From positions 434,001 through 498,000 of the forward strand of contig NZ_JAKIJS010000001.1 in assembly GCF_021608225.1 (NCBI RefSeq): 64,000 nucleotides of DNA, in the 5' to 3' direction. Positions within the stretch are counted from its first letter, which is position 1, and each line of letters opens with the position of its first letter. The stretch comes from Pseudalkalibacillus berkeleyi (GTDB lineage: Bacteria; Bacillota; Bacilli; Bacillales; Fictibacillaceae). The position numbers were made by a program, and so were the translations under genes. The notes under the pieces are model-generated. The model was given only the letters and a program-made list of their open reading frames with translations, did no database searches and was not told the origin of the DNA. Below are positions 23,884 to 49,565 of the stretch, one piece after another.

Positions 23884-24080
23884 TTACCGTTGTGAGAAAT
23901 CGCCTCTTACTGTCCGCGGTATCATCGTTTTAGCTCTACCGCGGCTAGAAAAGGCCTCTTACTGTCCGCCGTATCTCCGTTTCTGCTCTACCGCGGCTAG
24001 AAAAAGCCTCTTACTGTCCGCCGTATGTGCGTTTTTGTTCTACCGCGGCTAGAAAAGCCCCCTTTTATCCGCGCACGTTC
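23884..24080. repeat. Tandem array, 52 bp period, three full copies plus partials
   Basis: GCCTCTTACTGTCCGC recurs at 23902, 23954 and 24006, exactly 52 bases apart, with degenerate half-units on both flanks. Each unit holds an inverted repeat, CCGCGGTA ... TACCGCGG (perfect in copy 1, one mismatch in copies 2 and 3). It occupies most of the 334-base gap before the DUF1206 gene. Confidence 0.95.
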
Positions 24081-24135
24081 ACTTTACTTTTCAAGCGTTT
24101 AAAGGTACTCAACATAGATCCGTTGAAAAATAAAA

Positions 24136-24160
24136 GTTTCTTTTTCAAAGTTATGGGGAA
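24136..24160 (+). promoter_or_regulatory. Possible sigma-B-type promoter
   Basis: GTTTCT and GGGGAA are separated by 13 bases, weakly matching the sigma-B pattern GTTTAA-N13-15-GGGTAA, 43 bases before the DUF1206 gene. Confidence 0.25.
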
Positions 24161-24202
24161 TCTTTAAGGAAGTGGTTTGAGACGTGAAGGGAGCCTTATC
24201 TG

Positions 24203-25051
24203 ATGATGGATATAATAACAGATAAATTAAAGAACAGTAAAAGGGCAAAGGAAGCACAGAATGATGTAACACCTTGGATCAGATGGGCAGCAAGATTCGG
24301 TTATTTTTCAAAAGGGTCTGTTTATATATTAATCGGCATTCTTTCCATGATGGCTGCAGCTGGAATCGGAGGGAAGACAACAGATTCTAGTGGCGCTTTC
24401 GCATCCGTTGCGAGTAAGCCTTTTGGTGAAGTACTCCTATGGATTGTTGCGATTGGATTGATTGCATATGTGGGCTGGAGGTTGATCCAAACTTTCTGGG
24501 ATCCTGAGAATAAAGGATTCAGTCCAAAGGGACTCGTCATCCGCATCGGTTATTTAATTAGTGGTGCGATTTATGGAGGGCTTGCTTTCAAAGCTTTCCA
24601 GATTGCTTCGCATGCACAAAGCTCAGGGTCTTCAAAGCAAACGTATACCGCAAAATTAATGAGCCAACCGTACGGTACTTGGGTTGTAGGTATCGTTGGA
24701 ATCATCATCATCGTTTTTGGATTAAAGCAAATGTTCAATGGATATAAGGAAAAATTCGCTAAGAAATTCAAAATGAGTGAAATGAGCTCACATGAGTTTG
24801 CAGTTGGTAAAAAAATCGGAAAACTTGGGTTAATTGCACGAGGAATTACGTTTGCAATCATCGGATATTTTTTGACCCAAACAGCGATTACATCAGATTC
24901 TGATAAAGTGATTGGGTTAGATGGTGCACTTGCGAAAATTGCTCAACAGCCTTTCGGTCAATTCATGCTCGGTGCCGTTGCTATCGGACTTTTCTTATAT
25001 GGAGTTTTTCAGCTTTTAAAAGGGAAGAACCGTCACATGGGTGGTTTATAA
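24203..25051 (+). CDS. DUF1206 membrane protein
   Basis: This 282 aa protein is made of three similar units of two membrane helices each. Each unit has RFGY/RIGY/RGIT-type starts and a GALA-QPFG or FASVASKPFG motif before the second helix, which is the DUF1206 pattern. Six helices in total are predicted. The function is unknown; the family is often seen with stress genes, and here a peroxiredoxin follows 69 bases downstream. ATG follows AGGGAG. Confidence 0.88.
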   Translation: MMDIITDKLKNSKRAKEAQNDVTPWIRWAARFGYFSKGSVYILIGILSMMAAAGIGGKTTDSSGAFASVASKPFGEVLLWIVAIGLIAYVGWRLIQTFWDPENKGFSPKGLVIRIGYLISGAIYGGLAFKAFQIASHAQSSGSSKQTYTAKLMSQPYGTWVVGIVGIIIIVFGLKQMFNGYKEKFAKKFKMSEMSSHEFAVGKKIGKLGLIARGITFAIIGYFLTQTAITSDSDKVIGLDGALAKIAQQPFGQFMLGAVAIGLFLYGVFQLLKGKNRHMGGL

Positions 25052-25120
25052 TAGGGCATGTTTTACAAGAAAGCAAGGCGGGAAAAACATGAATATCTTC
25101 ACTTATAGGAGGTATTTTGA

Positions 25121-25780
25121 ATGGTAGATTTGAAAGAAGAAACCGAACAAACTACTTTACCTAGGTTAGGATCGACTGCACCAGATTTTTCTGCAAAAAG
25201 CAGTCAGGGACCGATAAAGCTTTCTGGATATCGAGGGAAGTGGGTTGTCATGTTTTCCCATCCAGCCGACTTTACACCTGTATGCACAACGGAGTTTGTC
25301 GCATTCCAAGATATTTATAGTGAACTTAAAGAAATGAATACAGAGCTAATCGGTTTAAGCGTTGATAGTGTGTCTTCACATATCGCTTGGATCCGTAATA
25401 TTGAAGAGAAATTTGATACGAAGATAGAATTCCCTGTGATTGCGGACCTTGACCGGAATGTCTCGACGAAATATGGGATGATCATGCCTGATGAAAGTCA
25501 GACAGAAACAACAAGAGCTGTATTTGTCATTGACACACAACAGAAGGTTCGATCAATCATCTACTATCCACTGACAACAGGGCGAAATATGCAAGAGATT
25601 TTACGACTTGTCAAAGCACTTCAAACAACTGAAGATCAAGGCGTTCCTACCCCTGCAAACTGGAAACCGGGTGAAGATGTATTAGTTCCACCACCTAAAA
25701 CACAGGAAGAAGCAGACGAACGAGAGCATAATGATGATTACGAATGTATAGATTGGTATCTTTGTAAGAAAAAAGCGTAA
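25121..25780 (+). CDS. Peroxiredoxin, Prx6 (1-Cys) type
   Basis: This 219 aa protein has the AhpC/TSA core with peroxidatic Cys55 in PADFTPVCTTEF, an invariant context, and the extended C-terminal domain typical of Prx6 (NWKPGEDVLVPPP). Cys209 and Cys215 in ECIDWYLC at the tail could resolve the sulfenic acid, as in archaeal Prx6-like enzymes. It reduces hydrogen peroxide or organic hydroperoxides in the cytoplasm. ATG follows GGAGG. It may be cotranscribed with the DUF1206 gene. Confidence 0.93.
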   Translation: MVDLKEETEQTTLPRLGSTAPDFSAKSSQGPIKLSGYRGKWVVMFSHPADFTPVCTTEFVAFQDIYSELKEMNTELIGLSVDSVSSHIAWIRNIEEKFDTKIEFPVIADLDRNVSTKYGMIMPDESQTETTRAVFVIDTQQKVRSIIYYPLTTGRNMQEILRLVKALQTTEDQGVPTPANWKPGEDVLVPPPKTQEEADEREHNDDYECIDWYLCKKKA

Positions 25781-25788
25781 GTGAAGAA

Positions 25789-25820
25789 CATGCTGCATGT
25801 AAAGGTGCAGCATGTTTTTT
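25789..25820 (+). terminator. Terminator of the peroxiredoxin gene
   Basis: A perfect CATGCTGCA stem with an eight-base loop is followed by T6. Confidence 0.92.
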
Positions 25821-25845
25821 GATTTGTAGAATTTAGTTTATCGCG

Positions 25846-26295
25846 TTAATTACGAAACCCCTCAACTTTCATATGTGGGCTTCGCTTCTTTAGTTCCGAT
25901 ATAAAACGGTCTTGTTCTCTTGGTGATACTTTCACACTACCTAGCAATCCAGAATGATAATGGATTTCGATTGCATCCATTGATGTTAGCAAACGATATC
26001 CCGAGAGGATTTGTCTTGTCGGTGATACTTTTGTGATGTCTTCATAAGCGATGCGGCTTCTAATTGGACCAGCTTTTACAAAAAGGTGATTTTCTCTGAA
26101 CACATATTGAATGGATATAAGCGTCCATAATAGCAAGCCGACAGTTAGGATGAATAGAGATAGTACAATCAGTGTGTTATAAGGTTTTCTACCACTTTCA
26201 AAAAATAGTGGGAGTAAGAAAGACACTAATATGATGATAAAAGTAATGGAAATGATTACCCTAAATGTTTTATCATATTTTGTTTTAAATTTCAT
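25846..26295 (-). CDS. PH-domain membrane protein (SunI/YyaB-like)
   Basis: Two membrane helices (about residues 12-30 and 40-63) precede a bacterial PH-like domain, with the pattern YVFRENHLFVKAGPIRSRIAYEDITKVSPTRQ followed by DAIEIHY. This matches small Bacillus PH-domain proteins such as SunI relatives. The role is unknown; SunI gives immunity to sublancin, but that should not be transferred here. ATG follows GGAGG. Confidence 0.78.
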   Translation of the reverse strand: MKFKTKYDKTFRVIISITFIIILVSFLLPLFFESGRKPYNTLIVLSLFILTVGLLLWTLISIQYVFRENHLFVKAGPIRSRIAYEDITKVSPTRQILSGYRLLTSMDAIEIHYHSGLLGSVKVSPREQDRFISELKKRSPHMKVEGFRN

Positions 26296-26426
26296 ATGAA
26301 CACCTCCAATGATTAGCTCTTCATTCTATTATAGGGAAGTTTATCCAATAGTGAAAAGAGGAATAGTCATAACGTGAGGCTTTTCGCTTATACATATACT
26401 TGAGAAAGGTTATAAAAATTTCTAGA

Positions 26427-26441
26427 TTAAAATTATTATAA
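26427..26441. promoter_or_regulatory. PerR box upstream of catalase
   Basis: TTAAAATTATTATAA matches the PerR consensus TTATAATNATTATAA at all but one defined position. It overlaps the -10 of a possible promoter (TTGAGA at 26400, 17 bases, TAGATT at 26423), which would suit peroxide-relieved repression. Confidence 0.8.
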
Positions 26442-26514
26442 AAAGATATTGATTTTTAAATGAGAAGTGATATCATTGGTTTTGTACTAAATAAAAACAC
26501 GAGGTGATGTGTAA

Positions 26515-27972
26515 ATGGATTCAAAAAAGAAGTTGACGACAAGCTGGGGTGCGCCAGTTGGGGACAACCAGAACTCGATTACAGCAGGTTCTCGCGGTCC
26601 GACACTTATTCAAGATGTACACCTCTTAGAGAAGCTCGCACATTTTAACCGTGAACGTGTTCCTGAGCGTGTTGTTCATGCGAAGGGTGCCGGTGCACAC
26701 GGATACTTTGAAGTAACGAATGATGTTTCGAAATATACGAAAGCAGATTTCCTATCAAAAGTAGGTAAACGTACGCCAATGTTCGCCCGTTTTTCAACGG
26801 TCGCTGGTGAAAATGGATCTGCAGATTCTGTACGTGATCCTCGTGGGTTTGCTTTGAAATTTTACACAGAGGAAGGAAACTATGATCTCGTAGGAAATAA
26901 TACGCCGGTATTCTTTATCCGAGATGCGATCAAGTTCCCAGATTTCATCCATACACAAAAGCGTCATCCGAAAACACACTTGAAGAACCCGAATGCAGTT
27001 TGGGATTTCTGGTCACTTTCTCCAGAATCACTTCATCAGGTGACTATCTTGATGTCTGACCGAGGTATTCCAGCTACATTCCGTCATATGCACGGTTTTG
27101 GAAGCCACACCTTCAAATGGGTGAACCAAGATGGGGACGGTGTTTGGATCAAGTATCATATCAAGACACAGCAAGGAATCAAAAACCTAACAGAAGAAGT
27201 CGGTACGAAAATTGCGGGTGAAAATCCGGATTATCATACAGAAGATCTTTTCAATGCGATTGAAAAAGGTGACTACCCTGAATGGAAGGTTTACGTACAG
27301 ATTATGCCTTTAGAAGATGCGGATACATATAAGTGGGATCCGTTTGATGTTACGAAGGTCTGGTCTCAGAAGGATTATCCTTTGATTGAAGTTGGTAAAA
27401 TGGTGCTTGATCGCAACCCTGAGAACTACTTTGCGGAAGTAGAGCAAGCGACGTTCTCACCAGGGGCACTCGTACCTGGTATTGATGTGTCACCAGATAA
27501 GATGCTTCAAGGTCGGTTGTTTGCTTATGCGGATGCACACCGTTACCGTGTTGGTGCAAACCATAATGCGTTACCAATCAACCGTCCGAAAAATGAAGTG
27601 AACACATATCAGCGCGATGGGCAAATGCGTTTCGACGACAATGGTGGTGGCTCTTCTTACTATGAGCCAAACAGCCTCGGGGGTCCAGAGGAAACGGAAG
27701 AAGCAAAGCAAGCTGCCTATCCGGTTTCGGGCGTCGCTGAAAGTGTAGGTTATGATCATAATGATCACTATACACAAGCAGGTGATTTGTACAGATTAAT
27801 GGATGAGGGCGAGCGTGAACGTACAGTACAAAACATCGTCGGTGCGATGATGCCAGTTGAATCAGACGACATCAAGCTCCGTCAAATCCAACATTTCTAT
27901 AAAGCAGACCCTGAGTTTGGTGAAAAGGTCGCTAAAGGGCTTGGACTGTCTGTACCACAAGAAGCTCGATAA
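26515..27972 (+). CDS. katA: Monofunctional haem catalase
   Basis: This 485 aa enzyme, a normal length for small-subunit clade 3 catalases, converts hydrogen peroxide to water and oxygen. The distal His lies in [16 protein letters not shown], the Asn in [12 protein letters not shown]'s neighbourhood (VGNNTPVFF), and the proximal haem-ligand Tyr in [14 protein letters not shown]. The RFSTV and [11 protein letters not shown] motifs are present. ATG follows GAGGTG. The PerR box 74 bases upstream points to control by peroxide. It is monocistronic with a strong terminator. Confidence 0.96.
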
Positions 27973-27991
27973 ATATTAGGAAGCTATATAC

Positions 27992-28026
27992 ACTCAGCGC
28001 TATGAATCCGTAGCGCTGAGTTTTTT
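27992..28026 (+). terminator. Terminator of katA
   Basis: A perfect 11-base stem (ACTCAGCGCTA) with an eight-base loop is followed by T6. Confidence 0.93.
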
Positions 28027-28076
28027 GATTGATCGTTATTGTAGACAACGAATGAACGAGCGCTGTTATAATAACT

Positions 28077-28427
28077 TTAGACATGACAAAGTATGTTGAT
28101 GAGTTTTCCATATGGGTCCCTTACATAGAAACGTTTGACCCCCCAGGGTTCTACGACTGGTCCATACTCTATTTGAAAACCGGCATTTTTCATTTGTTTA
28201 AATGCCTCATCTAAATCATCAACCTCAATGGATAGATCAGGAGTCGGTGTGTCAGACCCACCTTGAATGGCGAAACTGACTTGTATTTGTGATTGACCTT
28301 CTGTACCATATGTTGCAATCCACCCATGGTTCATCAGTTGGGTAAGTCCCAGTACGTCCTCATAAAAGGAATCTGCTTTTGTAATATCCTGTGTTTCAAT
28401 GTTGGGGACAATCCTTAAAACTTTCAT
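28077..28427 (-). CDS. VOC (glyoxalase/bleomycin-resistance fold) family protein
   Basis: This 116 aa single-domain protein has the VOC pattern: VPNIETQDITKADSFYEDVLGL at the start, a central WIATYG strand, and EPWGVKRFYVRDPYGKLINILCH at the end, where Glu and Asp fit metal-ligand positions. Substrates in the family range from methylglyoxal adducts to antibiotics; none can be inferred here. ATG follows AAAGGAG. Confidence 0.85.
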   Translation of the reverse strand: MKVLRIVPNIETQDITKADSFYEDVLGLTQLMNHGWIATYGTEGQSQIQVSFAIQGGSDTPTPDLSIEVDDLDEAFKQMKNAGFQIEYGPVVEPWGVKRFYVRDPYGKLINILCHV

Positions 28428-28459
28428 TATGACGCACTCCTTTAACTTTAATTTTGTAA

Positions 28460-28491
28460 AAAGAGCGATCGCTTTACGGCGAACGCCCTTT
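28460..28491 (-). terminator. Terminator of the class D beta-lactamase gene
   Basis: On the minus strand, GGGCGTTCGC pairs with GCGATCGCTC (one mismatch, one G-U) and is followed by TTTTTAC. Confidence 0.7.
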
Positions 28492-28499
28492 TGGTTTTA

Positions 28500-29306
28500 C
28501 TAATCTTGAATGATTTTCATTTCTTTGAGAATTTCGTATGTGATGTTTGAGGCTGTTGTTCCAGAAGCATTGATGTTCGTGACGAAAACATAAGCTCCTT
28601 GTTTGTTTTCCACGAAACCTACAAACCAACCTAAACCAAAATCAGATAACCTAGTGCCTGTTTTCCCATAAACCACATAGTTGTCTTCATCCTTTTGGAT
28701 CATCATCCGTTTTACAGTTTTCATGTTTTTCTTTGTGAAAGGTAGTTCTTCCTTATATAGCTGTTCCATGAAATCAGCTTGTTGGAACGGCGTCAGTTCA
28801 AGTGAACTATTTAACCAGAATTGATCGATTCCACCAGAGATATCCTCATTTCCATAGGAAAGATTACTTATCCAAGTTTGCATATTTTCGTTTCCGATAT
28901 CTCTTGCCATTGCTTGATAATACCAGATGACTGAATACCGCATTCCTGATCCTAGCGTGTGATCTTCATTCCAAATTTCAAATTGTCTTTCGATGCCATC
29001 CCATCTCTTTACATCGTATTCGTCACGAACAGCGCCAACCTCCAGTCCAATTAGTGCATTGGGAACTTTAAAAGTAGATTCAGGAGTAAAAAGGGTATCT
29101 GCTCTTTCACTGTTATAAACATACATTTTGTTATTATTGAGCTTCTTTAATATGAAGGTTCCATCGTGATGGCTGAAAAAGTGGCTTAGATCAATCTCTT
29201 TCGTTTTTTGATCCCCGTTGGTGCTCGTTTTGGCATTCGTCTGAGGTGTTGTACTTAGAATACTGATTAGGAAAAATGTAACGATAAACCATATCATTTT
29301 TTTCAT
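28500..29306 (-). CDS. Class D beta-lactamase (Bacillus YbxI/BPU-like)
   Basis: ATG at 29306 lies eight bases after GGTGGAGG. A signal peptide (about residues 1-25) leads to a penicilloyl-serine transferase domain with Ser77-x-x-Lys80 in PESTFKVPN, YSVIWYYQ for the second motif, YGNEDISGG for the third, and YGKTGTRLSD for the KTG box. Trp and Gly residues around FGLGWFVGF complete the class D fold. Chromosomal class D enzymes in Bacillus hydrolyse penicillins weakly to moderately. The protein could be released or membrane-associated. No BlaR/BlaI regulator is adjacent. Confidence 0.93.
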   Translation of the reverse strand: MKKMIWFIVTFFLISILSTTPQTNAKTSTNGDQKTKEIDLSHFFSHHDGTFILKKLNNNKMYVYNSERADTLFTPESTFKVPNALIGLEVGAVRDEYDVKRWDGIERQFEIWNEDHTLGSGMRYSVIWYYQAMARDIGNENMQTWISNLSYGNEDISGGIDQFWLNSSLELTPFQQADFMEQLYKEELPFTKKNMKTVKRMMIQKDEDNYVVYGKTGTRLSDFGLGWFVGFVENKQGAYVFVTNINASGTTASNITYEILKEMKIIQD

Positions 29307-29495
29307 TTTACTCGCCTCCACCTACCATATTAATAAGTGGGAGTGAATATAGAAAAAGGCAAATCTCCTATTTATCTAGCTCGAAGGAAAAACACATAGA
29401 CATAAAGTCACGATCGCCGATTAACATGGATAAATATTATGAGGAGAGAATAAGCATAATGAGGTGTATTCTTTATCGAAAGGAGATGATGGAGT

Positions 29496-29669
29496 ATGCC
29501 TTTTTGGGGTTGGATCATTCTCATTATTGGTTTGTTGCTCCTGTTTGGATTCATCTACGACAAACGGTCAAAGCACAAAAGAAACATAGGCCACTACAGC
29601 ATGAATGAGGATACTAAGAATAAAGCTCAACTCTATAAGGAAAAAAATCATTTTAATCATTTTTTCTAA
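29496..29669 (+). CDS. Small single-pass membrane protein (57 aa)
   Basis: ATG at 29496 follows AAGGAG nine bases upstream. The frame reads PFWGWIILIIGLLLLFGFIYDKR, one membrane helix, then a basic and polar tail rich in Lys, His and Asn ending HFNHFF. A different reading frame over the same bases lacks this character. It is followed immediately by a strong hairpin. The function is unknown. Confidence 0.6.
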   Translation: MPFWGWIILIIGLLLLFGFIYDKRSKHKRNIGHYSMNEDTKNKAQLYKEKNHFNHFF

Positions 29670-29674
29670 GTAAT

Positions 29675-29704
29675 AGAGCGATTACTTGACGAAGTAATCG
29701 CTCT
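29675..29704. terminator. Bidirectional terminator between convergent genes
   Basis: A perfect 13-base stem (AGAGCGATTACTT) with a GACG loop lies between the 57 aa gene and the DUF2332 gene. Confidence 0.85.
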
Positions 29705-29713
29705 TGTTGTTTG

Positions 29714-30751
29714 TTACACTAGGGTTTTCTGTAAATTCCACTCAAACCATCTGCCGTGTCCGTCTGTTTCCCCAATTGTATTCGTATATTCTTTCCCATC
29801 CAAATAGTAATCGAGATGAAGTTGACGATCCCACATATTGTTGTGGAGATGGAAGACGTCTCGTTCCTGTCCAATTGCCTTGATTTTTTCTTCAAGGGCA
29901 CGCTTTGAATCTTCCGGAATTTGATTGGCAACGTGCGTGTGGAAGATACAGATAGGTGTATCCTTTGGAAGCGAATCAATCACCTCAGGTAGTAGTGCGA
30001 TACCGTCCCCCTCAATCAGTTTGACTGGATCTTCGTTAAAGCGTTTCGCAGCATTTTCAAAAAGGTCCAAACGCTCTTGGTGCTCAGGCCATATGAGTGA
30101 TTTCAGCCACAAATAATCGTCTGTATCACCTAAGTCGCTAATATGTAAGTCCAATCCGACCTTTGAGACAACTGGCGGACTTTTTTTAAGGAATGAAGGA
30201 TTGTGCTCACCTTTAATTTCAGAGGTGATATGGACATCGGATTGTGTATCTCCATAAATTTCATCCGTCCCATAGGAATATTGATATTTGTCCCATAAAA
30301 GTTGGAGGCCTGCACTAGATCCTATCTCAATCATTGAAAGTGGTTTCTGGACTTGTTCATAGATATAGCAAAAAATCGGATAAAGGTATGCACAACGGCG
30401 AACTTCATTCGTCTGTACCAATCTTTGCTGTAGGATGGTAATCATCTCATCCCTATGTAATTCACAAAAATCCTTCAATTGATCAAAAGATCCTTCAAGT
30501 CCTTTCGGTTTATCCGTTACACTTGGATAATAGTCTTTAAGTGGATGATTACTTCCTTTTAACAAGAGGTAATGAACCGCACCTAAGATGAGGTTAGGAA
30601 CAGGTTGACCTTCTTGAGCGTAAGAGGATAGTTCAAGCATTTCATCATCTTCGGAAATTTTAATTGAAAGATATTCATACAGTGCGCTTGATCCGCTACA
30701 CTCCATGCTCGCAAAGTTCTTGAATCGTTCTGATAGTTGAGCAGTATTCAT
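29714..30751 (-). CDS. DUF2332 family protein
   Basis: This 345 aa cytoplasmic protein matches DUF2332: FASMECSGSSALYEYLS near the start, EVRRCAYLYPIF, IEIGSSAGLQLLWDKY (a Gly-rich loop like a methyltransferase motif I), and ICIFHTHVANQIPED. The fold is probably Rossmann-like and related to class I methyltransferases, but no reaction is known. ATG follows AAGGAGG. Confidence 0.85.
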   Translation of the reverse strand: MNTAQLSERFKNFASMECSGSSALYEYLSIKISEDDEMLELSSYAQEGQPVPNLILGAVHYLLLKGSNHPLKDYYPSVTDKPKGLEGSFDQLKDFCELHRDEMITILQQRLVQTNEVRRCAYLYPIFCYIYEQVQKPLSMIEIGSSAGLQLLWDKYQYSYGTDEIYGDTQSDVHITSEIKGEHNPSFLKKSPPVVSKVGLDLHISDLGDTDDYLWLKSLIWPEHQERLDLFENAAKRFNEDPVKLIEGDGIALLPEVIDSLPKDTPICIFHTHVANQIPEDSKRALEEKIKAIGQERDVFHLHNNMWDRQLHLDYYLDGKEYTNTIGETDGHGRWFEWNLQKTLV

Positions 30752-30989
30752 GAAAGTCCTCCTTGTAGTACCAGATATGATAAATAAAGACAGCCTCTGT
30801 ATAGATTACATAGTCACGTGACGAATTCCTGCTCGTTCATTTTATTGCTGTTCATGTACTTTCAAATAAGTTTCGATTTCTTTGTTACGTAATTTTACCA
30901 TTTCGTCATTTAATGTTTAACTCTAGGCATTTAGGTGAAAACGTAGGTTACGAGCGTGTACAAAAAACTAAGATGAGTGGGGACAAGCT

Positions 30990-31562
30990 ATGTTTGAATT
31001 TGTAGTTGAGTTTATAAAAGAATATGGGGTCTGGGGCTTACTTATTAGTGTTGCATTGGAAGCTTCTTCATTACCTTTTCCAGGGGGACTCGTCACGTTG
31101 ACGTTCGGCTATTTCTTGAACCCTAGTATCAGTGAACTTTTCAGTTACGGACTCTTAGCGAGCGGTGTATATACAATATTTAGTTTCATACCTTATGGGA
31201 TTGGCTTTAAGCTTGAGCATAAATTAAAAGAAAAGACGAATACACGAAAAATTGAAAAGGCTCAAAACTGGTTTAAGAAATACGGCAGCTGGAGCATTGC
31301 GCTCACCCGACCAATAGGATTAGGAAACTATATTTCATACTTAGCTGGTGGTAGTCGCGTGAAGGCATGGAAATTCGGTCTATTAACATTTGTTGGGATC
31401 TTTCCATGGACGGTTACGATGCTCTGGTTAGGGAACAGTGGTAACCTTAAGGCTGTCACGAGCTTCTTAGGAGATATTCAAGTTTACTTGTTAATTGGAC
31501 TTGCGGTGGTTCTAATCGGTTACTTCTTTTATCGATATAAGAAAACGCAACAGGCAAATTAA
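30990..31562 (+). CDS. DedA/VTT-family membrane protein
   Basis: This 190 aa protein has the DedA (VTT) layout: a re-entrant region with EASSLPFPGGLVTLTFGYF near the start, then TRPIGLGNYISYLAGGSRVKAWKFGLLTFVGIFPWT, and a final membrane helix with a basic tail. Conserved Arg and Gly in the second motif fit the family. DedA proteins include undecaprenyl-phosphate and phospholipid flippases; which lipid is used here is unknown. ATG follows a GGGG-type site. The 238 bases upstream hold only short unassigned frames. Confidence 0.88.
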   Translation: MFEFVVEFIKEYGVWGLLISVALEASSLPFPGGLVTLTFGYFLNPSISELFSYGLLASGVYTIFSFIPYGIGFKLEHKLKEKTNTRKIEKAQNWFKKYGSWSIALTRPIGLGNYISYLAGGSRVKAWKFGLLTFVGIFPWTVTMLWLGNSGNLKAVTSFLGDIQVYLLIGLAVVLIGYFFYRYKKTQQAN

Positions 31563-31563
31563 T

Positions 31564-31592
31564 AAAGAGTGACCAGTGGAGGTCACTCTTTT
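31564..31592. terminator. Bidirectional terminator between dedA-like gene and glutaminase
   Basis: A perfect AAAGAGTGACC stem with a six-base loop is followed by TT; it overlaps the last bases of the convergent glutaminase gene. Confidence 0.85.
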
Positions 31593-36960: not shown

Positions 36961-36990
36961 GATGTGGTGAAAGCACTTTGGGAGCATTGA

Positions 36991-37310
36991 GTGCTCGGTA
37001 GTGAGGATATTGGTATACGGAGCACCTAAAGAGGTTCAATGAGTGCTCGGTAGTGAGGATATTGGTATACGGAGCACCCATAGAGGTTCAATGAGTGCTC
37101 GGTGGCGAGGATATTGATTTACGGAGCACCCATAGAGGTTCAATGAGTGCTCGGTGGCGAGGATATTGATTTACGGAGCACCCATAGAGGTTCAATGAGT
37201 GCTCGGTATCGAGGAAATTGATTTGAGGAGCACCTAAAGAGGTTGAATGGGTGCTCGGTATCGAGGAAGTTGATTTACGGAGCACCTAAATAGGTTCAAT
37301 GTGTGCTGGG
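36991..37310. repeat. Tandem array, 52 bp period, six full copies plus a partial
   Basis: GTGCTCGG begins at 36991, 37043, 37095, 37147, 37199 and 37251, and a partial copy (GTGCTGGG) at 37303: exactly 52 bases every time. Each unit has an inverted repeat GTGCTC-N23-GAGCAC joined by a linker with AAAGAGGTTCAATGA. It fills most of the 450-base gap between the lipoprotein and the aminopeptidase. Confidence 0.97.
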
Positions 37311-38544: not shown

Positions 38545-38603
38545 TCATCAGATAAAAATACAATAAAGTTGCCTTAACAGTTTTACTGCAGAGGTCAAAG
38601 CGA

Positions 38604-38644
38604 AACGCACTGAATTTCTCAAATGAAATTCACAGTGCGTTTTT
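38604..38644 (+). terminator. Terminator of the GCACTG hairpin family (copy B)
   Basis: AACGCACTG pairs with CAGTGCGTT, with an inner AATTTC / GAAATT stem and a small CA bulge, then T5. It probably ends the aminopeptidase transcript. Confidence 0.88.
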
Positions 38645-38720
38645 AATTGTTATATCAAAGATTCCTTAGATATTGATGATAAATAGCATATTCGTACCGT
38701 GAAAATGGCGAAAACCAATT

Positions 38721-38897
38721 ATGACGGATAGAAAGAAGCTGCTAACAACAACTTTTAGCAATGTTATAACATGCTTGGAAGAAAATAGTGAAATTGAAGA
38801 TGATGACTTATTTGTAGGATTATCAGCAACATCTTACGTAATAGGGCTGAACCATTTGCTGGTTCAGCCCCTTTTATATTGCATTGATATCGATTAG
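38721..38897 (+). CDS. Orphan 58-codon frame, possibly a gene remnant
   Basis: The frame MTDRKKLLTTTFSNVITCLEE continues to TAG at 38895. It has no good ribosome binding site, and a terminator hairpin lies inside its 3' part. That suggests the decayed 5' end of a gene whose remainder was lost, or a chance frame. The 466-base gap between 38544 and 39011 holds only this and two hairpins. Confidence 0.25.
   Translation: MTDRKKLLTTTFSNVITCLEENSEIEDDDLFVGLSATSYVIGLNHLLVQPLLYCIDID
38844..38875 (+). terminator. Terminator-like hairpin
   Basis: A perfect GGGCTGAACCA stem with a five-base loop is followed by CTTTTAT. No firm gene precedes it. Confidence 0.75.
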
Positions 38898-40429: not shown

Positions 40430-40444
40430 TGAAGGAGTTTTTAG

Positions 40445-41656: not shown

Positions 41657-41724
41657 CGTTATGGAAAGGAGTTCGATTTTTGAAAAAGAATGTAAGAAAA
41701 GAGAAATATTACAGGAGGGATATT

Positions 41725-42936: not shown

Positions 42937-42948
42937 TATGGAAAAAGG

Positions 42949-42988
42949 AGCTCCCCAAGATGACTTTAATAGTTCACTATTGGGTGCT
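42949..42988 (+). terminator. Terminator of the carboxypeptidase gene
   Basis: GAGC-CCCAA pairs imperfectly with TTGGG-GCTC and is followed by T7. Confidence 0.75.
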
Positions 42989-43010
42989 CTTTTTTTATTA
43001 ACTCCTGTTA

Positions 43011-43120
43011 TGCACAATAAAATCGATATATGCACGATAATCTTGATATATGCACGATAATCTTGATATATGCAAGATAATCTTGATTTATGCACAATAA
43101 ATTCGGTATATGCACGATAA
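43011..43120. repeat. Tandem array, 20 bp period, 5.5 copies
   Basis: Units of TGCACGATAATCTTGATATA or close variants start at 43011, 43031, 43051, 43071, 43091 and 43111. The reverse complement (ATTATCGTGCA...) aligns with the units at 2546 and 12831. It lies in the 315-base gap before the GyrI-like gene. Confidence 0.95.
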
Positions 43121-43251
43121 TAAACAATTTTCAACTAAACAAGTTTATCCTAAGGAAACCAAATCCAGGAAAGCTGTTTAAAAAAAAGAAGGTTTTAGCT
43201 GGGAATGTATTGAAGGATTTGGGATGACCTCAATCCTATTTAAAGGAGATA

Positions 43252-43734
43252 ATGACCTTGAATCCTAGAATAGAAGTTTTACCTGAAAAGAAATTGGTTG
43301 GTATGAACATGGAGATGTCATTCAATCAGGATCGAACGCCTGAACTTTGGGGATTGTTCATGCCGAAGCGTAGGTACGTTCAAAACCGAGTAGATGATAA
43401 GTTTTACTCTATGCAAATATACGATGGTTTATTTCGTTTCAAGCAATCTGATCCAAACCGTGCATTCCAAAAGTGGGCTGCGGTTGAGGTCACTGATTTT
43501 ACAAGTGTGGAGAATGACTTTGATACATATCTTTTACAAGGCGGAAAGTATGCTGTCTTTATCCATAATGGTCCTGCGCATGCGTTCATGAAGACTTTCT
43601 CATATATATTTGAAACATGGTTACCAGCATCGGAATATGAACTCGACAACCGTGAACATTTTGAGTGCATGACGGAAGACTATCATCCTGCTGATCCTAA
43701 CGCTACAGAGGAAGTTTGGATTCCGATTAAATAA
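43252..43734 (+). CDS. GyrI-like effector-binding-domain protein
   Basis: This 160 aa protein fits the GyrI-like/AraC effector-binding fold: PRIEVLPEKKLVGMNMEMS at the start, GGKYAVFIHNGPAHAFMKTFSYIFETWLP in the middle, and a C-terminal EEVWIPIK strand. The start is ATG 43252 or, with better spacing after AAAGGAG, TTG 43258. Such domains bind drug-like ligands. It is distinct from the broken GyrI-like gene at 8.7 kb. Confidence 0.82.
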   Translation: MTLNPRIEVLPEKKLVGMNMEMSFNQDRTPELWGLFMPKRRYVQNRVDDKFYSMQIYDGLFRFKQSDPNRAFQKWAAVEVTDFTSVENDFDTYLLQGGKYAVFIHNGPAHAFMKTFSYIFETWLPASEYELDNREHFECMTEDYHPADPNATEEVWIPIK

Positions 43735-43759
43735 TTTTACACGTAAAAAGGAGTTTTGT

Positions 43760-44008
43760 ATGAAGTTAATCAAGCAATCTATTATTGGATCCGTTGTCTT
43801 ACATATCATTTATTTTGTAGGTATGATGATCATCGGGTATTTTAAAACGGTAAATGTACAACCGAATAGTGAGAGCGCGATTGCACTAGAGAATGAGGTA
43901 GCATTTGGAGCTACTATTGCTCCATCATTTTATCTGGTTACATTTATTAGTGCTGCTGTTCTTTGTGGTGTATTATTGTTTTCATATCAACGTTTTTTAA
44001 AGCGATAA
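43760..44008 (+). CDS. Small membrane protein, two transmembrane segments
   Basis: ATG at 43760 follows AAAAGGAG. The 82 aa protein has helices at about 6-27 and 53-75 separated by a polar loop (TVNVQPNSESAIALENE). The family is not recognised. It lies between the GyrI-like and tautomerase genes. Confidence 0.62.
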   Translation: MKLIKQSIIGSVVLHIIYFVGMMIIGYFKTVNVQPNSESAIALENEVAFGATIAPSFYLVTFISAAVLCGVLLFSYQRFLKR

Positions 44009-44040
44009 ATGACAATCTAATATAAGGGAGACCAAAGCTC

Positions 44041-44241
44041 ATGCCGTACATTAATGTTCAGATTACTAAAGGTGCAACTCGCGATCAGAAGGAACAGATC
44101 GTGAAAGAGTTTACGGATACGATGGTAAATGTCCTTGGTAAAAATCCAGCGCACACTCACATTGTAATCCAAGAAATAGAAGAGGAGAACTGGGGCTTTT
44201 CAGGAATGCTAACGGATAATTTTAGAAAGAACGCAAAGTGA
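44041..44241 (+). CDS. 4-oxalocrotonate tautomerase family enzyme
   Basis: This 66 aa protein has the catalytic N-terminal Pro after Met removal (MPYINVQITKGATRDQKEQIV) and the conserved Arg position is plausible near residues 13-14. VQITKGATRDQK and HTHIVIQEIEEENWG match the small tautomerases that interconvert 2-hydroxymuconate and 2-oxo-3-hexenedioate. The physiological substrate in Bacillus is usually unknown. ATG follows AGGGAG. Confidence 0.9.
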   Translation: MPYINVQITKGATRDQKEQIVKEFTDTMVNVLGKNPAHTHIVIQEIEEENWGFSGMLTDNFRKNAK

Positions 44242-44254
44242 ATAATGAAATAGA

Positions 44255-44288
44255 AAATGTTACTCCTATTAGAGGGGTAACATTTTTT
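44255..44288 (+). terminator. Terminator of the tautomerase gene
   Basis: An AATGTTACTCC / GGGGTAACATT stem is followed by T6. Confidence 0.88.
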
Positions 44289-44412
44289 ACATATTAATGA
44301 GCGATATGCGAATTAAGGTTTTTAGGAATACCCGCTTAGGGTATAAAGTGATTAGGGTGCAATTGAATGAATACATAGCGATTGTTTGAGAACTTATATA
44401 ATTGAGGTGATT

Positions 44413-45714
44413 ATGGTGAGCGACTATAAAGAAAACAGCTTAACCCTGCCTGGAGCGATCGGTTTAGGTACTGGCGTCATGATCAGTGCTGGTATTTTTG
44501 CATTACTTGGACAAGTAGCAGAACTTGCTGGGATTTGGTTCCCTCTCATTTTTATCGCAGGTGGAATCGTAACCGGATTCAGTGCTTACTCTTACGTGAA
44601 AATGAGTAATGAGTATCCATCTGCCGGTGGTATAGGGATGTTTCTGGCAAAAGCTTACGGAAAAGGTACAATAACAGCATCAGCAGCAATGTTGATGGCG
44701 ATATCGATGGTGATTAACCAAAGTTTGGTTGCAAGAACCTTTGGGACCTATACATTGCAGATTTTTGATGGTGATCAGCCTGGTTATTTAGTGCCTTTAC
44801 TTGGAGTAGGTTTATTGACTTTTGCTTTCCTAGTCAATATTTCAGGGAACAGCTTCATTCAGACTTTTACATCTATTGTTTCCTTATTAAAAATAGTAGG
44901 GTTAGTGGTATTTGCAATTGGAGGATTGTGGGCTGCAGGTTTCTCCTTTACTCCTGCTGAAGGAAGTGGAAGTACACCAGACACCACTGTTGCAGGAATC
45001 ATCGCAGCCGTGGCATTGACGATATTATCCTTTAAAGGATTTACCACAATAACGAATAGTGGCTCGGAAATTGTTGAACCAAAAAAGAATGTAGGTCGTG
45101 CAATCATTGTTTCAATATTAATCAGTTTAGTTGTTTACTTAATCCTAGCGTGGACCGTCTCAACCAGCCTTCCATTAAGCAGGATTATTGAAGCTAGAGA
45201 CTATTCTTTAGCTGAAGCAGCTAGACCCGCATTTGGGGATTACGGTGTTTGGTTCACAGTAGCGATAGCAATCATTGCAACTATCTCTGGAATTATAGCA
45301 AGTGTGTTTGCGGTATCACGAATGCTTGCGATGCTCACAAATATGAAACTGATTCCACATAGCCACTTCGGTATGCCTGGAAAAATTCAAAAGCATACGC
45401 TTGTTTATACGATTGTACTAGCGATGGTGTTGACCGTGGTCTTTGATTTAAGCCGAATCGCATCTGTAGGAGCTATTTTATATTTAGTAATGGACATGAT
45501 TATACATTGGGGTGTTTTCAAGAAACTAAGAGGAAAAGTGAAAGCCAACAAAGGAATTGTACTGACGGCTCTTATACTTGATGCCATTGTGTTGTCTGCT
45601 TTCCTTTGGATAAAAGCCAAAACTGATCTATTAATTGTCGGTGTTTCAATTCTATTCATTATAGTGGTCTTTATCGGTGAGCATTTCTTCTTAAGAAGAA
45701 CCACCCAAGAATAG
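44413..45714 (+). CDS. APC-family amino acid permease
   Basis: ATG at 44413 is five bases after GAGG. The 433 aa protein has about 12 membrane helices and the APC start GAIGLGTGVMISAGIFALLGQVAELAG (helix 1, substrate-binding Gly-rich break) and FKGFTTITNSGSEIVEPKKNVGRAI between helices 6 and 7, both typical of the YfnA/CAT-like branch. It probably imports an amino acid by proton symport. The substrate is unknown. It sits between the M14 and S8 protease genes. Confidence 0.92.
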   Translation: MVSDYKENSLTLPGAIGLGTGVMISAGIFALLGQVAELAGIWFPLIFIAGGIVTGFSAYSYVKMSNEYPSAGGIGMFLAKAYGKGTITASAAMLMAISMVINQSLVARTFGTYTLQIFDGDQPGYLVPLLGVGLLTFAFLVNISGNSFIQTFTSIVSLLKIVGLVVFAIGGLWAAGFSFTPAEGSGSTPDTTVAGIIAAVALTILSFKGFTTITNSGSEIVEPKKNVGRAIIVSILISLVVYLILAWTVSTSLPLSRIIEARDYSLAEAARPAFGDYGVWFTVAIAIIATISGIIASVFAVSRMLAMLTNMKLIPHSHFGMPGKIQKHTLVYTIVLAMVLTVVFDLSRIASVGAILYLVMDMIIHWGVFKKLRGKVKANKGIVLTALILDAIVLSAFLWIKAKTDLLIVGVSILFIIVVFIGEHFFLRRTTQE

Positions 45715-45726
45715 CATAGGTATATT

Positions 45727-45762
45727 AAAAAAGACGCTTTTCTAAATAGAAGGCGTCTTTTG
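45727..45762 (+). terminator. Terminator of the permease gene
   Basis: AAAAGACGC pairs with GCGTCTTTT around an inner TTTTCT / AGAA pairing. Confidence 0.88.
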
Positions 45763-45910
45763 TTCGTTCACTACACCTTACGTACTAGCATGATTTACTA
45801 CTTTATTTCCCTGAATATATACCATTCTCATGATAGATTCGCTTTACTCCTAGTGCGATAATTTTATTAGGATGAAATCTGAAATTTCAGTAAAAGGAGA
45901 GTGGGAAAAT

Positions 45911-48319
45911 ATGAAGCGTGATAGAAACTTATTTTCGATAGTGATGGCGATGGTACTTTTGATAGGTTTACTTTTGCCAAACAGTCAAGTTAGTGCGACA
46001 ACTACGGACGGAACTGCAACAATGGATCAGCACTTACTAGAGGAAATGAAACAAAATACGAGCCTGATCAATGTCATTGTTACATTTCATGGTGAAGGTG
46101 CTCCGACAAACGAAAACGTAGCATTGTTAAAAACACTAGGTATTAACACTGGGGTTACAATGCAATCCCTTCCAATAGCGGGCGTGTTAGCAACATCACA
46201 ACAAATTGAGGCTCTTTCAAAAAGGGAAGATGTGCGTTCTCTCTACTTGAACCGAAAAGTAGAGATGTACAACGGCAACGCAACTGAATTAACGGGCGTC
46301 AACAAAGTACGAACTGATCAAGAAATGCAAAAAGCGAACGGTGGCTTGCCGGTTTCAGGTAAAGGAGTTGGCGTTGTCGTCAATGACAGTGGCGTAGATG
46401 GCACACACCCTGATATGAAATTAGGTAAAAACCTCGTTCAAAATGTGTTAGGTACGACGAATATGGCGAAAACAACTGGACTCACTCCGATTGTTTATCA
46501 AGAAGATGTAGTTAACACGGATACGAACTCTGGTCACGGCACCCATGTCGCGGGTACGGTCGGAGGAACGGGTGCTGCTTCATCTGGTCAATATGAAGGT
46601 GTTGCACCTGGTGCAGATTTAATTGGTTACGGATCAGGTGGAGGCGTATTAATTTTAGATTTAGTAGGTGGCTTCGATTATGCCATCACAAACCAAAACG
46701 AGTACAACATTCGGATCATTACGAACTCATGGGGATCGAATGATGATTTCTTTGCGGATGATCCAGTAAACGTAGCGACAAAAGACTGCTATGACCGTGG
46801 CATTACAGTGCTTTTTGCAGCAGGTAATGCAGGTCCTGATGAAGATACACACAATCCTTATGCAAAAGCACCTTGGGTCATTTCAGTAGCAGCTGGTAAA
46901 AAAGACGGAACTTTGGCAGACTTCTCTTCACGTGGAACGAGAGGTGTTGGTGAAACGTTTGAAGTGGATGGCCAAACCTGGACGTGGAAGGATCAACCGA
47001 CTGTAACAGCTCCAGGTGTTGATATCATTTCTGCGCGAACGTTATCTCCAGTCGGTGTCATCAGTACGCATAAAGACAAAGATAACATCCCAGCAGCTTA
47101 CCTTCCTTACTATACGATGTTGAATGGAACTTCAATGGCAACGCCTCATATAGCAGGTGTGGTTGCATTACTTTTTGATGCAGAACCGACATTATCACCT
47201 AATGAAGTGAAGGAAATTATTAGTCAAACAGCAACAAACATGCCAGGGCGTGAGGCATATGAGGTTGGAGCAGGATATGTCAATGCTTACGGAGCAGTAG
47301 ACCTTGCGATGAATCCGAGCAAAAAGTACGGAGCAACCGTCAATAAGGAACAAACCTTTAATGCGCAAAGCTCGATGGAAGTGATCCGTGAGAATTACGC
47401 AATGGACTACAATCCAACTTCTGAAAATGAAACGACTTTTACCGTACAAGATAATCAAGCTCAGCTTGTCGCAAAAATGTATGCTGATGGAGATACTTTT
47501 ACTGAAGAGGGTGGGAATCCACTCGTCTTCACGATTACAAATCCAAACGGTGAAGTTTACGAATCTGGATTCAATCCAACATACAGTATTGATCTCGTCA
47601 ATACAATAACGGTTGAAAACCCGGTTGCAGGAGAGTGGAAGCTGAATGTAAATGCTTATCCAGGTGTTGCTGTACCTGAAAAAGTAGTCGGAACATTGAC
47701 TCAGAAGACGGCAAGCACGATGAATGGATTGACCGATATTGAGGGACATCCAGCTGCAGACGCAATCAGGCTTGGCATTACAGAGCGGCTTTTTGATGCA
47801 AAATCAGGAGGAGACTTTTACGCAGACAATTTGTTAACACGAGGCGATCTTGCAAGCTATTTAATAATGGGTGCAGGTATTCGTCAGGTTGAGCAAATAA
47901 CGGATGATGCGGCAATGGATGCAGTATTTACGAAAGGTGCTGCGTTAAAAGGTGAGTACAGCAACGATGGAGTCATGAGGTCTGAAGAAAGTAATTCAGA
48001 TTACGTAACCAGAGCAGAACTAGCTTATTCCCTCGTACAAAGTTTAGGACTTCAAGATGAAGCCCGAAGCTTTGAAGGAGAATTGACAGTAGCGTATAAA
48101 GGTGAACGACTGGCGATTGAAGATGCAGGTGAGATTCCATCTGAGCTGATGGGTTACGTCCAACTAGCAATCGATTTAGGCATTTTCAATGTAAAGTACA
48201 CGTCAACTCAAGAACCATATGACTTAGAGCCAACGATTCATGCAACATTCCAACCAGAAGAAAAAGTCACACGAGGTGATTTTGCGGTCGCGATGACACG
48301 TTTTATTAACAACTATTAA
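45911..48319 (+). CDS. Secreted S8 (subtilisin-like) protease with C-terminal SLH-like repeats
   Basis: ATG at 45911 follows AAAGGAGAG. The 802 aa protein has a signal peptide (cleaved near VSA-TT, residue 29), a propeptide-like region (40-125), and an S8 domain with Asp159 in VVVNDSGVD, His209 in [10 protein letters not shown] and Ser408 in NGTSMATPHIAG. A beta-rich region (about 500-600) resembles a P/proprotein-like or CARDB-like domain. The last 200 residues hold three SLH-like motifs (LTRGDLASYLIMG, VTRAELAYSLVQ, VTRGDFAVAMTRF) that may hold it on the cell wall polymer. An extracellular, cell-bound protease is likely. Confidence 0.93.
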   Translation: MKRDRNLFSIVMAMVLLIGLLLPNSQVSATTTDGTATMDQHLLEEMKQNTSLINVIVTFHGEGAPTNENVALLKTLGINTGVTMQSLPIAGVLATSQQIEALSKREDVRSLYLNRKVEMYNGNATELTGVNKVRTDQEMQKANGGLPVSGKGVGVVVNDSGVDGTHPDMKLGKNLVQNVLGTTNMAKTTGLTPIVYQEDVVNTDTNSGHGTHVAGTVGGTGAASSGQYEGVAPGADLIGYGSGGGVLILDLVGGFDYAITNQNEYNIRIITNSWGSNDDFFADDPVNVATKDCYDRGITVLFAAGNAGPDEDTHNPYAKAPWVISVAAGKKDGTLADFSSRGTRGVGETFEVDGQTWTWKDQPTVTAPGVDIISARTLSPVGVISTHKDKDNIPAAYLPYYTMLNGTSMATPHIAGVVALLFDAEPTLSPNEVKEIISQTATNMPGREAYEVGAGYVNAYGAVDLAMNPSKKYGATVNKEQTFNAQSSMEVIRENYAMDYNPTSENETTFTVQDNQAQLVAKMYADGDTFTEEGGNPLVFTITNPNGEVYESGFNPTYSIDLVNTITVENPVAGEWKLNVNAYPGVAVPEKVVGTLTQKTASTMNGLTDIEGHPAADAIRLGITERLFDAKSGGDFYADNLLTRGDLASYLIMGAGIRQVEQITDDAAMDAVFTKGAALKGEYSNDGVMRSEESNSDYVTRAELAYSLVQSLGLQDEARSFEGELTVAYKGERLAIEDAGEIPSELMGYVQLAIDLGIFNVKYTSTQEPYDLEPTIHATFQPEEKVTRGDFAVAMTRFINNY

Positions 48320-48328
48320 AAGGAAACG

Positions 48329-48372
48329 AAGCTGACTTAAGAGGATATTTATTCTTCTGAGTCAGCTTTTTT
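48329..48372 (+). terminator. Terminator of the S8-SLH protease gene
   Basis: AAGCTGACT pairs with AGTCAGCTT and is followed by T6. Confidence 0.88.
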
Positions 48373-48457
48373 AATATAGTAAGATCTATTTACAAAATAT
48401 GCTAAAATGGACGTATACATATCTTTCTAGAAATTGAGGCGGTGAAAGGAGTTATCT

Positions 48458-48739
48458 ATGAATTCATTAAGGGGCTGGATTTTACCTGTGGTCTTTTTAA
48501 CGGTTTCAATATTACTAGTAATGAAAGGTCTTGAGTTACGTTCATTGGGATCAGATGTAGATGGCTCAGGAATGGGTGTATATTTTCTATTTATGGAAAT
48601 CAATGATCGGGTACCTGAGCAAATTGTTCCATCATATGCTATGGGTTTCTTGATTGCTAGTTTCGTAACTTTCCTAATTACAGTGGGGTTGTTTTTACGG
48701 ACCTATTTAAGACCAAGAAGAGTTCAGGTGTTTAAATGA
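48458..48739 (+). CDS. Small membrane protein, two transmembrane segments
   Basis: ATG follows AAAGGAG. The 93 aa protein has helices at about 7-24 and 62-82 with a polar loop between, and a basic tail (RTYLRPRRVQVFK). It overlaps the next gene by four bases (ATGA), so the two are coupled. The function is unknown. Confidence 0.65.
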   Translation: MNSLRGWILPVVFLTVSILLVMKGLELRSLGSDVDGSGMGVYFLFMEINDRVPEQIVPSYAMGFLIASFVTFLITVGLFLRTYLRPRRVQVFK

Positions 48740-48918
48740 TTGCAACTATATTTGGGATTGTAAATCTATTGATAGTTATATATGTCATATTCAGCCTTTC
48801 TACAATCAAACATCAATTAAATTTAATTTCGAAACAAATAAACATTAATGAGGAAATGATACAAACCGTAAGTAACGAAGAAATTGAAAAGGAACTAGAA
48901 GAAGATCTGAAAAAGTAA
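48736..48918 (+). CDS. Small single-pass membrane protein with coiled-coil tail
   Basis: ATG overlaps the previous stop codon. The 60 aa protein has one helix (IFGIVNLLIVIYVIFSL) and a charged helical tail rich in Glu and Lys. Its layout parallels the 42 aa peptide at 39973. The function is unknown. Confidence 0.6.
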   Translation: MIATIFGIVNLLIVIYVIFSLSTIKHQLNLISKQININEEMIQTVSNEEIEKELEEDLKK

Positions 48919-48959
48919 GTGTTTAACTAAAAACTACGTACAGAATGGAGCAATATCTC

Positions 48960-49397
48960 TTGGTACCAAAACAAAACATGAAAGATACATATTCACCACC
49001 TAAACATATTGTTTCTGCAGCAACTATTGTCATTAATGATCAGAATGAACTTCTATTAATAAAGGGTCCACGAAGAGGCTGGGAAATGCCTGGTGGCCAA
49101 GTTGAAGAAGGTGAGTCATTAAAAGAAGCTGCTATTAGGGAAACAAAAGAAGAAACGGGTATTGATGTTGAAGTTATTCAATTTTGCGGGGTATTCCAGA
49201 ATGTGAACAAATCCATATGTAATACGCTATTCTTAGCTAAACCAATTGGAGGTTCCTTTACAACTTCTCCTGAAAGCTTGGAGGTAGGATTTTACCCTGT
49301 TGAAGAAGCTTTACAATTGGTAACTTGGAAAAGCTTTAGACAAAGGATCGAGTACTGTTTAAACAAAAACATGCAACCATTTTATGTGGAATTTTAG
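48960..49397 (+). CDS. Nudix hydrolase
   Basis: TTG at 48960 lies nine bases after GGAG; the ATG at 48945 has no site. The Nudix box is GGQVEEGESLKEAAIRETKEE then TGI. The family hydrolyses nucleoside-diphosphate derivatives using Mg2+ and Glu residues. Its substrate is unknown. It is followed by a 52 bp repeat array. Confidence 0.9.
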   Translation: MVPKQNMKDTYSPPKHIVSAATIVINDQNELLLIKGPRRGWEMPGGQVEEGESLKEAAIRETKEETGIDVEVIQFCGVFQNVNKSICNTLFLAKPIGGSFTTSPESLEVGFYPVEEALQLVTWKSFRQRIEYCLNKNMQPFYVEF

Positions 49398-49458
49398 GAA
49401 TGATTGTCCGGATAAAAAAGATATAACGATATTGAGTTATTTGGTAGTCGACAAATCG

Positions 49459-49565
49459 CAAAGGCCTCTTGCGTACCCTCAAATCGAGGATGAGCAAATT
49501 TCAGTACCTTCAAAGGCCTCGCCCGTACCCTCAAATCGAGGATGAGCTGATTTCAGTACCCGCAA
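49459..49565. repeat. Tandem array, 52 bp period, two copies
   Basis: CAAAGGCCTC begins at 49459 and 49511, 52 bases apart, and the two units match at most positions. Each has CCTC-AAAT-CGAGG and is bounded by GTAC...GTAC. The AAAGGCCTCTT block also occurs in the 23884 array. Confidence 0.9.

Follow-up and report, generated by a model that had tools for sequence, protein, structure and literature searches.

Three tandem arrays with a period of 52 bp lie in a 64,000-nucleotide stretch of the Pseudalkalibacillus berkeleyi genome (contig NZ_JAKIJS010000001.1, positions 434,001 to 498,000; the window), and each contains an inverted repeat in its unit. The reading favored here, with confidence a little below even, is that these arrays are a DNA-level element presenting helically phased, inverted half-sites to a DNA-binding protein, and that they work like the BIME-2 class of bacterial interspersed mosaic elements (BIMEs). 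Inverted half-sites repeated every 52 bp (five turns of 10.4 bp) would place each copy of a site on the same side of the helix. One face of the array could then serve as the docking surface for a sequence-specific DNA-binding protein, or for a nucleoid protein or wrapping enzyme (gyrase, for example), which would bend or anchor the DNA at gene ends, chiefly between convergent genes, where transcription would drive in positive supercoils. Protein binding, the identity of the protein, and the topological or architectural effect are what we infer; sites on one helix face are proposed because the arms are common to dispersed arrays, the spacers are free, the spacing is in whole turns, and neither a pairing constraint nor a transcription strand was evident. 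Intergenic palindromic repeat arrays are already known as a kind of element; what may be new is helical quantization across an entire array class.

The existence of the three arrays and their exact period, as claimed in an earlier sequence-only reading, were confirmed by Tandem Repeats Finder (0% indels in all three) and by a scan of the window at lags of 20 to 199, in which lag 52 was confined to the three array sites (Table 1). The remaining separate arrays of the window gave lags of 20/40 and 21, with weak single hits at 60 and 198. The arms of array 1 had been given as CCGCGGTA/TACCGCGG; an inverted repeat is present there, but these perfect arms occur in copy 1 alone, and copies 2 and 3 carry CCGCCGTA. 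Similarly, one array does carry the CCTCTT linker in reverse, as described, but it is array 2 and not the third. Array 2 has the same C opposite C as family F1, and array 3 has unpaired bases after its GTAC/GTAC arms. F1 and F2 are half-site families of the genome that holds the window (G000; 3.5 Mb in eight contigs).

Table 1. Arrays with a 52-bp period and a related solitary unit, in window positions
Feature	Position	Strand	Half-sites and basis
Array 1, period 52, ~3.3 copies	23895..24064	+	F1, CTRTCCGC / GCGGAYAG type; Tandem Repeats Finder, F1 relatives elsewhere in genome
Array 1, first half-site pair	23910-23921 and 23937-23948	+	
Array 2, period 52, ~6.2 copies	36988..37307	-	F2, GTGCTC / GAGCAC; F2 relatives elsewhere in genome
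Array 3, period 52, ~2.0 copies	49459..49560	+	GTACCCTCAAAT / ATTTCAGTAC; orientation by linker, uncertain
Solitary divergent unit	38686..38739	-	F1-related (CTATCCGTCA ... CGGTACGAAT); BLAST of array consensus units against window

The genome-wide family that had been anticipated was found: similarity searches with the three window arrays and an F1 array at 176.7 kb of contig 1, together with sampled stretches and a pattern search, gave about 30 array loci in G000. All of the loci that were scanned have a period of 52; several others (e.g., 1618, 2797, and 2961 kb of contig 1) are search hits only. Within the genus set of eight genomes (G000 to G007), further arrays with different half-sites are carried by G002, G005, and G007. 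When F1 and F2 units are numbered from CCTCTT as base 0, base i faces base 52-i, arm 1 occupies positions 7-14 and arm 2 positions 38-45, and a C opposite C at 15/37 is followed in most units by GTA/TAC. The arms read CTRTCCGC/GCGGAYAG in F1 and center on GTGCTC/GAGCAC in F2. All 14 of the consensus units classed as F1 or F2 had the opposed C residues; in this tabulation the F1 group included L032 from G002, the F2 group included the F1 array L012, and units with another best-stem center were left out. A third type, built on GTAC, includes array 3 and L029. Arms in G005 are of a CTRTCC(T/C)(T/C)/GAGGAYAG-like form, those in G007 are GGGACAG/CTGTCCC, and G002 has several other types (e.g., TGCCCCGAAA/TTTCGGGGCA). 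Families can also meet within a single array: L014 has ten F1 rows followed, after a one-base shift, by three F2 rows, and L026 joins an F2-like arm 1, in register, to a non-matching arm 2. Units within one array are alike along their full length, and arrays of one family have the arms and linker in common but not the spacer.

The spacing of these units is rigid. Spacing and location were followed in a set of 49 arrays drawn from G000, G002, and G005, with one array in G007 and one weak pair in G006. After five two-copy arrays were dropped, the remaining 44 contained 173 inter-copy steps, of which 170 were 52, two were 53, and one was 51; the same arrays showed 925 substitutions in 8268 compared columns (11%). 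In four G007 arrays with different spacers, the distance from CTGTCC to GGACAG was 23 bp in 15/15 cases and that from GGACAG to CTGTCC was 29 bp in 15/15. The gap that contains CCTCTT is the short one in L253 and L256 but the long one in L254 and L255, so the 52-bp period was kept though the linker moved relative to the sites. The proposal that the linker marks these elements holds for the G000 species and for G005, where the CCTCTT pattern outnumbered the search tool's control pattern (30 versus 3 and 9 versus 0, respectively), but fails for the wider class (7 versus 12 in G002, 12 versus 32 in G007, and 1 versus 33 in G006). Control matches were common in the order-wide search as well, and CCTCTT was rejected as a class-defining mark on these counts.

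The sequence-only reading attributed the variable arms to selection for structure and not sequence, and the pairing of the arms contradicts this. Within families assigned by arm position, arm pairs variable on both sides were Watson-Crick in 12 of 41 cells against a permuted mean of 19.3, and as few were obtained in 0.6% of permutations; with wobble pairs included, the count was 32 of 41 against 35.7. The set is small, with four informative arm pairs (9/43 in F1; 9/43, 13/39, and 14/38 in the G005/G002 family), and when the F1 array L012 was grouped in F2 instead, 35 of 67 cells were Watson-Crick against 35.9 and 56 included wobble against 51.7, a weak excess (P = 0.038). Among 54 deviating arm-pair cells inside arrays, 50 were changed on one side only. 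Base pairing is not the kept feature, and the arms vary independently within families, the outcome that the sequence-only reading had itself named as counting against it. Since the arms differ between families yet are common to dispersed arrays of one family, they point to recognition of sequence.

Five helical turns had been suggested as the reason for a period of 52, and this remains the likely reason given the conserved spacing and the periods of non-coding arrays, which lie near whole turns. A motif-free scan at lags of 15 to 130 covered about 2.4 Mb. The genus part (1.744 Mb) comprised the window, 80 even 20-kb stretches of G000, G002, G005, and G006, and one or two stretches each of G001, G003, and G004; the other-family part (0.64 Mb; 32 stretches from 14 genomes) was non-random, since its genomes had come from the CCTCTT search or had many matches in it. 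The scan found 63 and 17 non-coding arrays in the two sets, respectively, and 72 of these have periods from 15 to 70: 24 at 20/21, one at 27, 13 at 40-43, three at 47, 29 at 51-53, and two at 61/63. The earlier expectation that other periods would not be equally common was borne out in part, as 52 is the commonest single period (26/72) but 20 and 21 together account for 24. Whole multiples of 10.4 bp were approached to within 1.65 bp by 68 of the 72 arrays (resultant length 0.82), against the 30% of periods from 15 to 70 that would do so, with a tolerance chosen post hoc after the list had been seen and with periods in the 40s that are partly doubled 20s. Reduction to one array per genome and period left 30 of 33, with a resultant of 0.74 and a peak at 10.4; the best-fitting repeat was 10.5 for all 72 arrays and 10.4 for the reduced set. 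Rayleigh probabilities were 1e-21 and 2e-8 for the full and reduced sets, both ignoring kinship of the arrays. No such clustering was seen in 16 coding-like arrays (resultant 0.27).

The order-wide CCTCTT search, in 397 genomes and with periods limited to 42-62, listed 150 places in 77 clusters from 50 genomes. Clusters with at least two matches numbered 30, and 24 of them fell at 51-53, four at 42, one at 50.25, and one at 60. For all 77 clusters the counts were 45 at 51-53 (null share 22%), 10 at 42 (null share 0.2%), and nine at 43-50.5 (null share 38%), with the proviso that single-match clusters include coding repeats and chance matches, probably among them many of the nine at exactly 51. 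Four genomes from other families (G155, G393, G371, and G335) held many CCTCTT-phased matches in this search, with 268 in G155. In 17 other Bacilli loci (213 kb) no non-coding arrays were found, and 62 loci from other groups (676 kb) yielded seven, with periods of 17, 21, 38, 52, 59, 66, and 111 that are not evidently quantized. It is conceivable, though we would not call it probable, that the non-coding tandem arrays of the genus, and perhaps of much of Bacillales, form one class with a period quantized at two, four, five, and six turns and a sequence rewritten between species, which would act at gene ends as docking rails for an architectural or topological system of rapidly changing specificity. 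The window itself has two non-coding tandem arrays with periods of two helical turns, one of 21 bp at 2545-2676 and one of 20 bp at 43009-43121; the latter has relatives at more than 10 other places of G000, and 20-bp arrays with different cores occur in other species.

The arrays are found at the ends of genes, in many cases between convergent ones, and show no transcription-direction bias. With gene orientation taken from a crude open reading frame caller, 19 of the 49 arrays lay between convergent genes, 25 were co-directional (11 with and 14 against transcription), and five were divergent. In the background, 70 of 590 intergenic regions of 80 bp or longer from G000, G002, and G005 were convergent, giving an excess with p = 1.4e-6 for a set in which many arrays are related and were found by similarity. 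This location recalls, by analogy, that of BIME-2. Five arrays (L032, L039, L041, L042, and L043) begin, when read in the array orientation, right behind the T-run of a terminator-like hairpin. Individual arrays turn over: none was present at the site orthologous to array 2 in the four relatives examined (G005, G003, G004, and G007), nor at the array 3 site of G007 (the only relative examined there), which lies behind a homologous upstream gene. As arrays were missing at 5/5 orthologous sites examined, no single array is essential. The sampled density of lag-52 arrays was 8 in 464 kb for G000 (three of them in the window) and 5, 7, and 0 per 400 kb for G002, G005, and G006; in addition, the sample contained one lag-51 array each from G000, G002, and G005 and one lag-104 array from G005. 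The skew of the sampled stretches puts the terminus at about 1.3 Mb of contig 1. The intervals of that contig at 0.6-1.3 Mb and 1.65-2.15 Mb contain none of the 52-bp places known, a pattern noted post hoc.

A 10.4-bp periodicity of A/T steps inside the units is partly shown. For AA/TT steps in 69 units (the 49 and 20 more), harmonic 5 (10.4 bp) was the strongest (z = 12.7), followed by harmonic 7 (z = 11.7). By source, harmonic 5 reached z = 9.2 in G000, 5.3 in G002, 8.2 in G005, and 6.0 in G007; in this breakdown the group named G000-F1 took in most F2 arrays. Predicted curvature, from a wedge model, was raised in the genus relative to shuffled units (mean percentile 0.81; 20/49 above the 90th and 0/49 below the 10th).

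Several results weigh against a reading of the arrays as phased protein sites. Harmonic 7 (7.4 bp) of AA/TT steps rivals harmonic 5, with z = 6.7 in G000, 6.9 in G002, and 10.3 in G005; it exceeds harmonic 5 in G002 and G005 and is absent in G007 and in 16 other-family arrays. The A+T signal of G000 gives only 1.8 at harmonic 5 and 6.8 at harmonic 7, and in the 16 other-family arrays harmonic 5 is weak (A+T 2.7, AA/TT 1.3). Curvature was unraised in 18 other arrays (mean percentile 0.56; two above the 90th and two below the 10th). The strand-neutral 20- and 40-bp arrays are quantized too, and no inverted half-sites were seen in them. In the sampled set the excess of convergent sites was 7/22 (p = 0.011), and the absence of arrays at every orthologous site examined has already been described. 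In the best stems on the CCTCTT strand, G.T exceeds A.C (277 versus 143), as strand-specific folding would give; this count was given little weight, the CCTCTT strand being T-rich and cells within an array not independent. Several half-site families coexist within one genome, and the binding protein is hypothetical.

The main rival is a duplication process that prefers whole turns. Duplication and expansion by template switching or slippage, on DNA that is looped or bound by protein, would favor whole turns, and the products would be functionless and persist harmlessly at gene ends. Such a process would account for quantization that reaches unrelated 20/21- and 40-bp arrays in like places (convergent 8/23, divergent 0) and for the empty orthologous sites, but not for arms and linker that are kept across the dispersed arrays of a family when spacers are not. 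Three off-length steps in 173 against 925 substitutions also speak against it, though homogenization inside arrays would remove indels as well; overall, we regard a by-product of mutation as rather doubtful. The arrays could instead act in RNA: their transcription would yield successive hairpins at mRNA 3' ends, which would serve in stability or termination or as RNase substrates. Their closeness to stop codons and the surplus of G.T over A.C on one strand would suit this proposal, but the near-even split of the 25 co-directional cases, the lack of covariation between arms and of compensatory changes in stems, and the absence of any Rfam match at the gathering threshold in the window do not, and helical quantization would have no reason at the RNA level. 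A hairpin or RNA element, dropped as the leading reading after the arm covariation, strand bias, and Rfam tests, is very improbable. An array of clustered regularly interspaced short palindromic repeats (CRISPR) was likewise rejected, as spacers are copied along with the arms inside an array and are not unique; this was judged from the arrays, and cas genes were not searched.

A further alternative is that the units are non-autonomous mobile palindromes, of the repetitive extragenic palindrome (REP)/BIME or miniature inverted-repeat transposable element (MITE) type, whose single-stranded hairpins would be recognized by a transposase and amplified in tandem. The imperfect palindrome with its fixed C opposite C in F1 and F2, the species-specific sequences, the location at gene ends (several arrays directly after a terminator-like T-run), and the solitary divergent units in the window and in G005 are consistent with this. 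Y1-transposase domains occur in 8/8 genus genomes, and in G006 a 20-bp array (L251, G006:C1:3826001-3830500, 2677-2953; the array is also present in L111) lies directly beside a gene for a REP-associated tyrosine transposase (RAYT). The exact CCTCTT pattern was also matched in two viral contigs; one match is a 13-bp repeat and the other, in L337 (8700-9000), is a run of about three 52-bp copies in which CCTCTT is present and the half-sites are different. Mobility was rated slightly higher because the L251 array adjoins a RAYT gene and a viral contig holds this short 52-bp run, and it is still unlikely. The RAYT gene of G000 is flanked by a different palindrome (GTGGGTCGAGGGACCTGTCCC...), and GGGGACGGTTCT repeats flank one RAYT gene of G005. 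Repeats of 48 bp are found in the RAYT regions of G002, G003, and G004 and in one of the G007 regions, with the palindrome read in G002 only. When array units were compared with 11 RAYT regions (of 15 domain matches; three in G001 and one in G004 were left out), a single 15-base BLAST hit was obtained. Moreover, the arms do not covary, 35/35 strict F1 matches lie inside arrays, and an F1 array had no match in 72,556 plasmid records. RAYT was rejected as the driver of the arrays, its domains being present throughout the genus yet the flanking repeats read being others. The G000 locus itself (L242, G000:C1:2638001-2642500) is a typical REPtron, a RAYT gene amid four copies of its own GTGGGTCGAGGGACCTGTCCC-type palindrome.

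Comparison with described repeats leaves the reading of phased protein sites closest to BIME-2, which according to PMC2817692 bind gyrase strongly and for which a supercoiling argument is made in PMC1525189. The BIME-2 and REP arrays of enterobacteria and others lie outside genes as species-specific rows of imperfect palindromes, frequently with convergent genes on either side (PMC1525189, PMC2817692); the G000 arrays are similar in having an imperfect palindromic unit, an extragenic location, and many copies (~30 loci). Inter-REP segments, however, are described in PMC2817692 as varying substantially in length, and Stenotrophomonas palindromes as preserved by complementary mutations, whereas the arrays here have a rigid 52-bp period at whole helical turns, no complementary mutations in four informative arm pairs, and no RAYT flanked by the array repeat in the regions read. 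The arrays were not filed as REP/BIME because neither the RAYT link nor complementary mutations were found. They resemble the RAYT-flanking repeats of the genus (48-bp arrays, with a GTGTCAGGCACC palindrome in G002) in being palindromic, tandem, and present in the same genomes, but differ in period (48 in the latter) and in sequence. Bacterial minisatellites, such as variable number tandem repeats (VNTR) and mycobacterial interspersed repetitive units (MIRU), are non-coding tandem arrays that differ between relatives; unlike these, the arrays here share half-sites and one period at many dispersed loci with differing spacers. Intrastrand triplex motifs are likewise short repeats, abundant in bacteria, that may adopt non-B DNA structure, but the motif in the abstract of PMC4666352 is G/C-rich and not stated there as tandem or helically phased, and it is set apart here by description only. 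No report of such arrays in Bacillales turned up in the open PMC literature, a coverage outside which most subscription papers lie. To our knowledge, no equivalent of the BIME-gyrase system has been described in Gram-positive bacteria. If the period is set by the helical repeat, the arrays would report a face-specific interaction at tens of places in the genome, would allow such elements to be found independently of their sequence, and would help to show how these bacteria manage supercoiling at gene ends.

The solitary unit between arrays 2 and 3 aligns with array units (e.g., 80% over 50 bases to unit L050_1486 by BLAST), and its exact pattern was found once in the window and once in G005 among the eight genus genomes searched. 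A terminator-like hairpin stretch (AACGCACTGAATTT...AAATTCACAGTGCGTT) occupies window positions 38595-38690, and partial copies of it, about 60-90 bases long, occur elsewhere in G000 and in G002, G005, G006, and G007.

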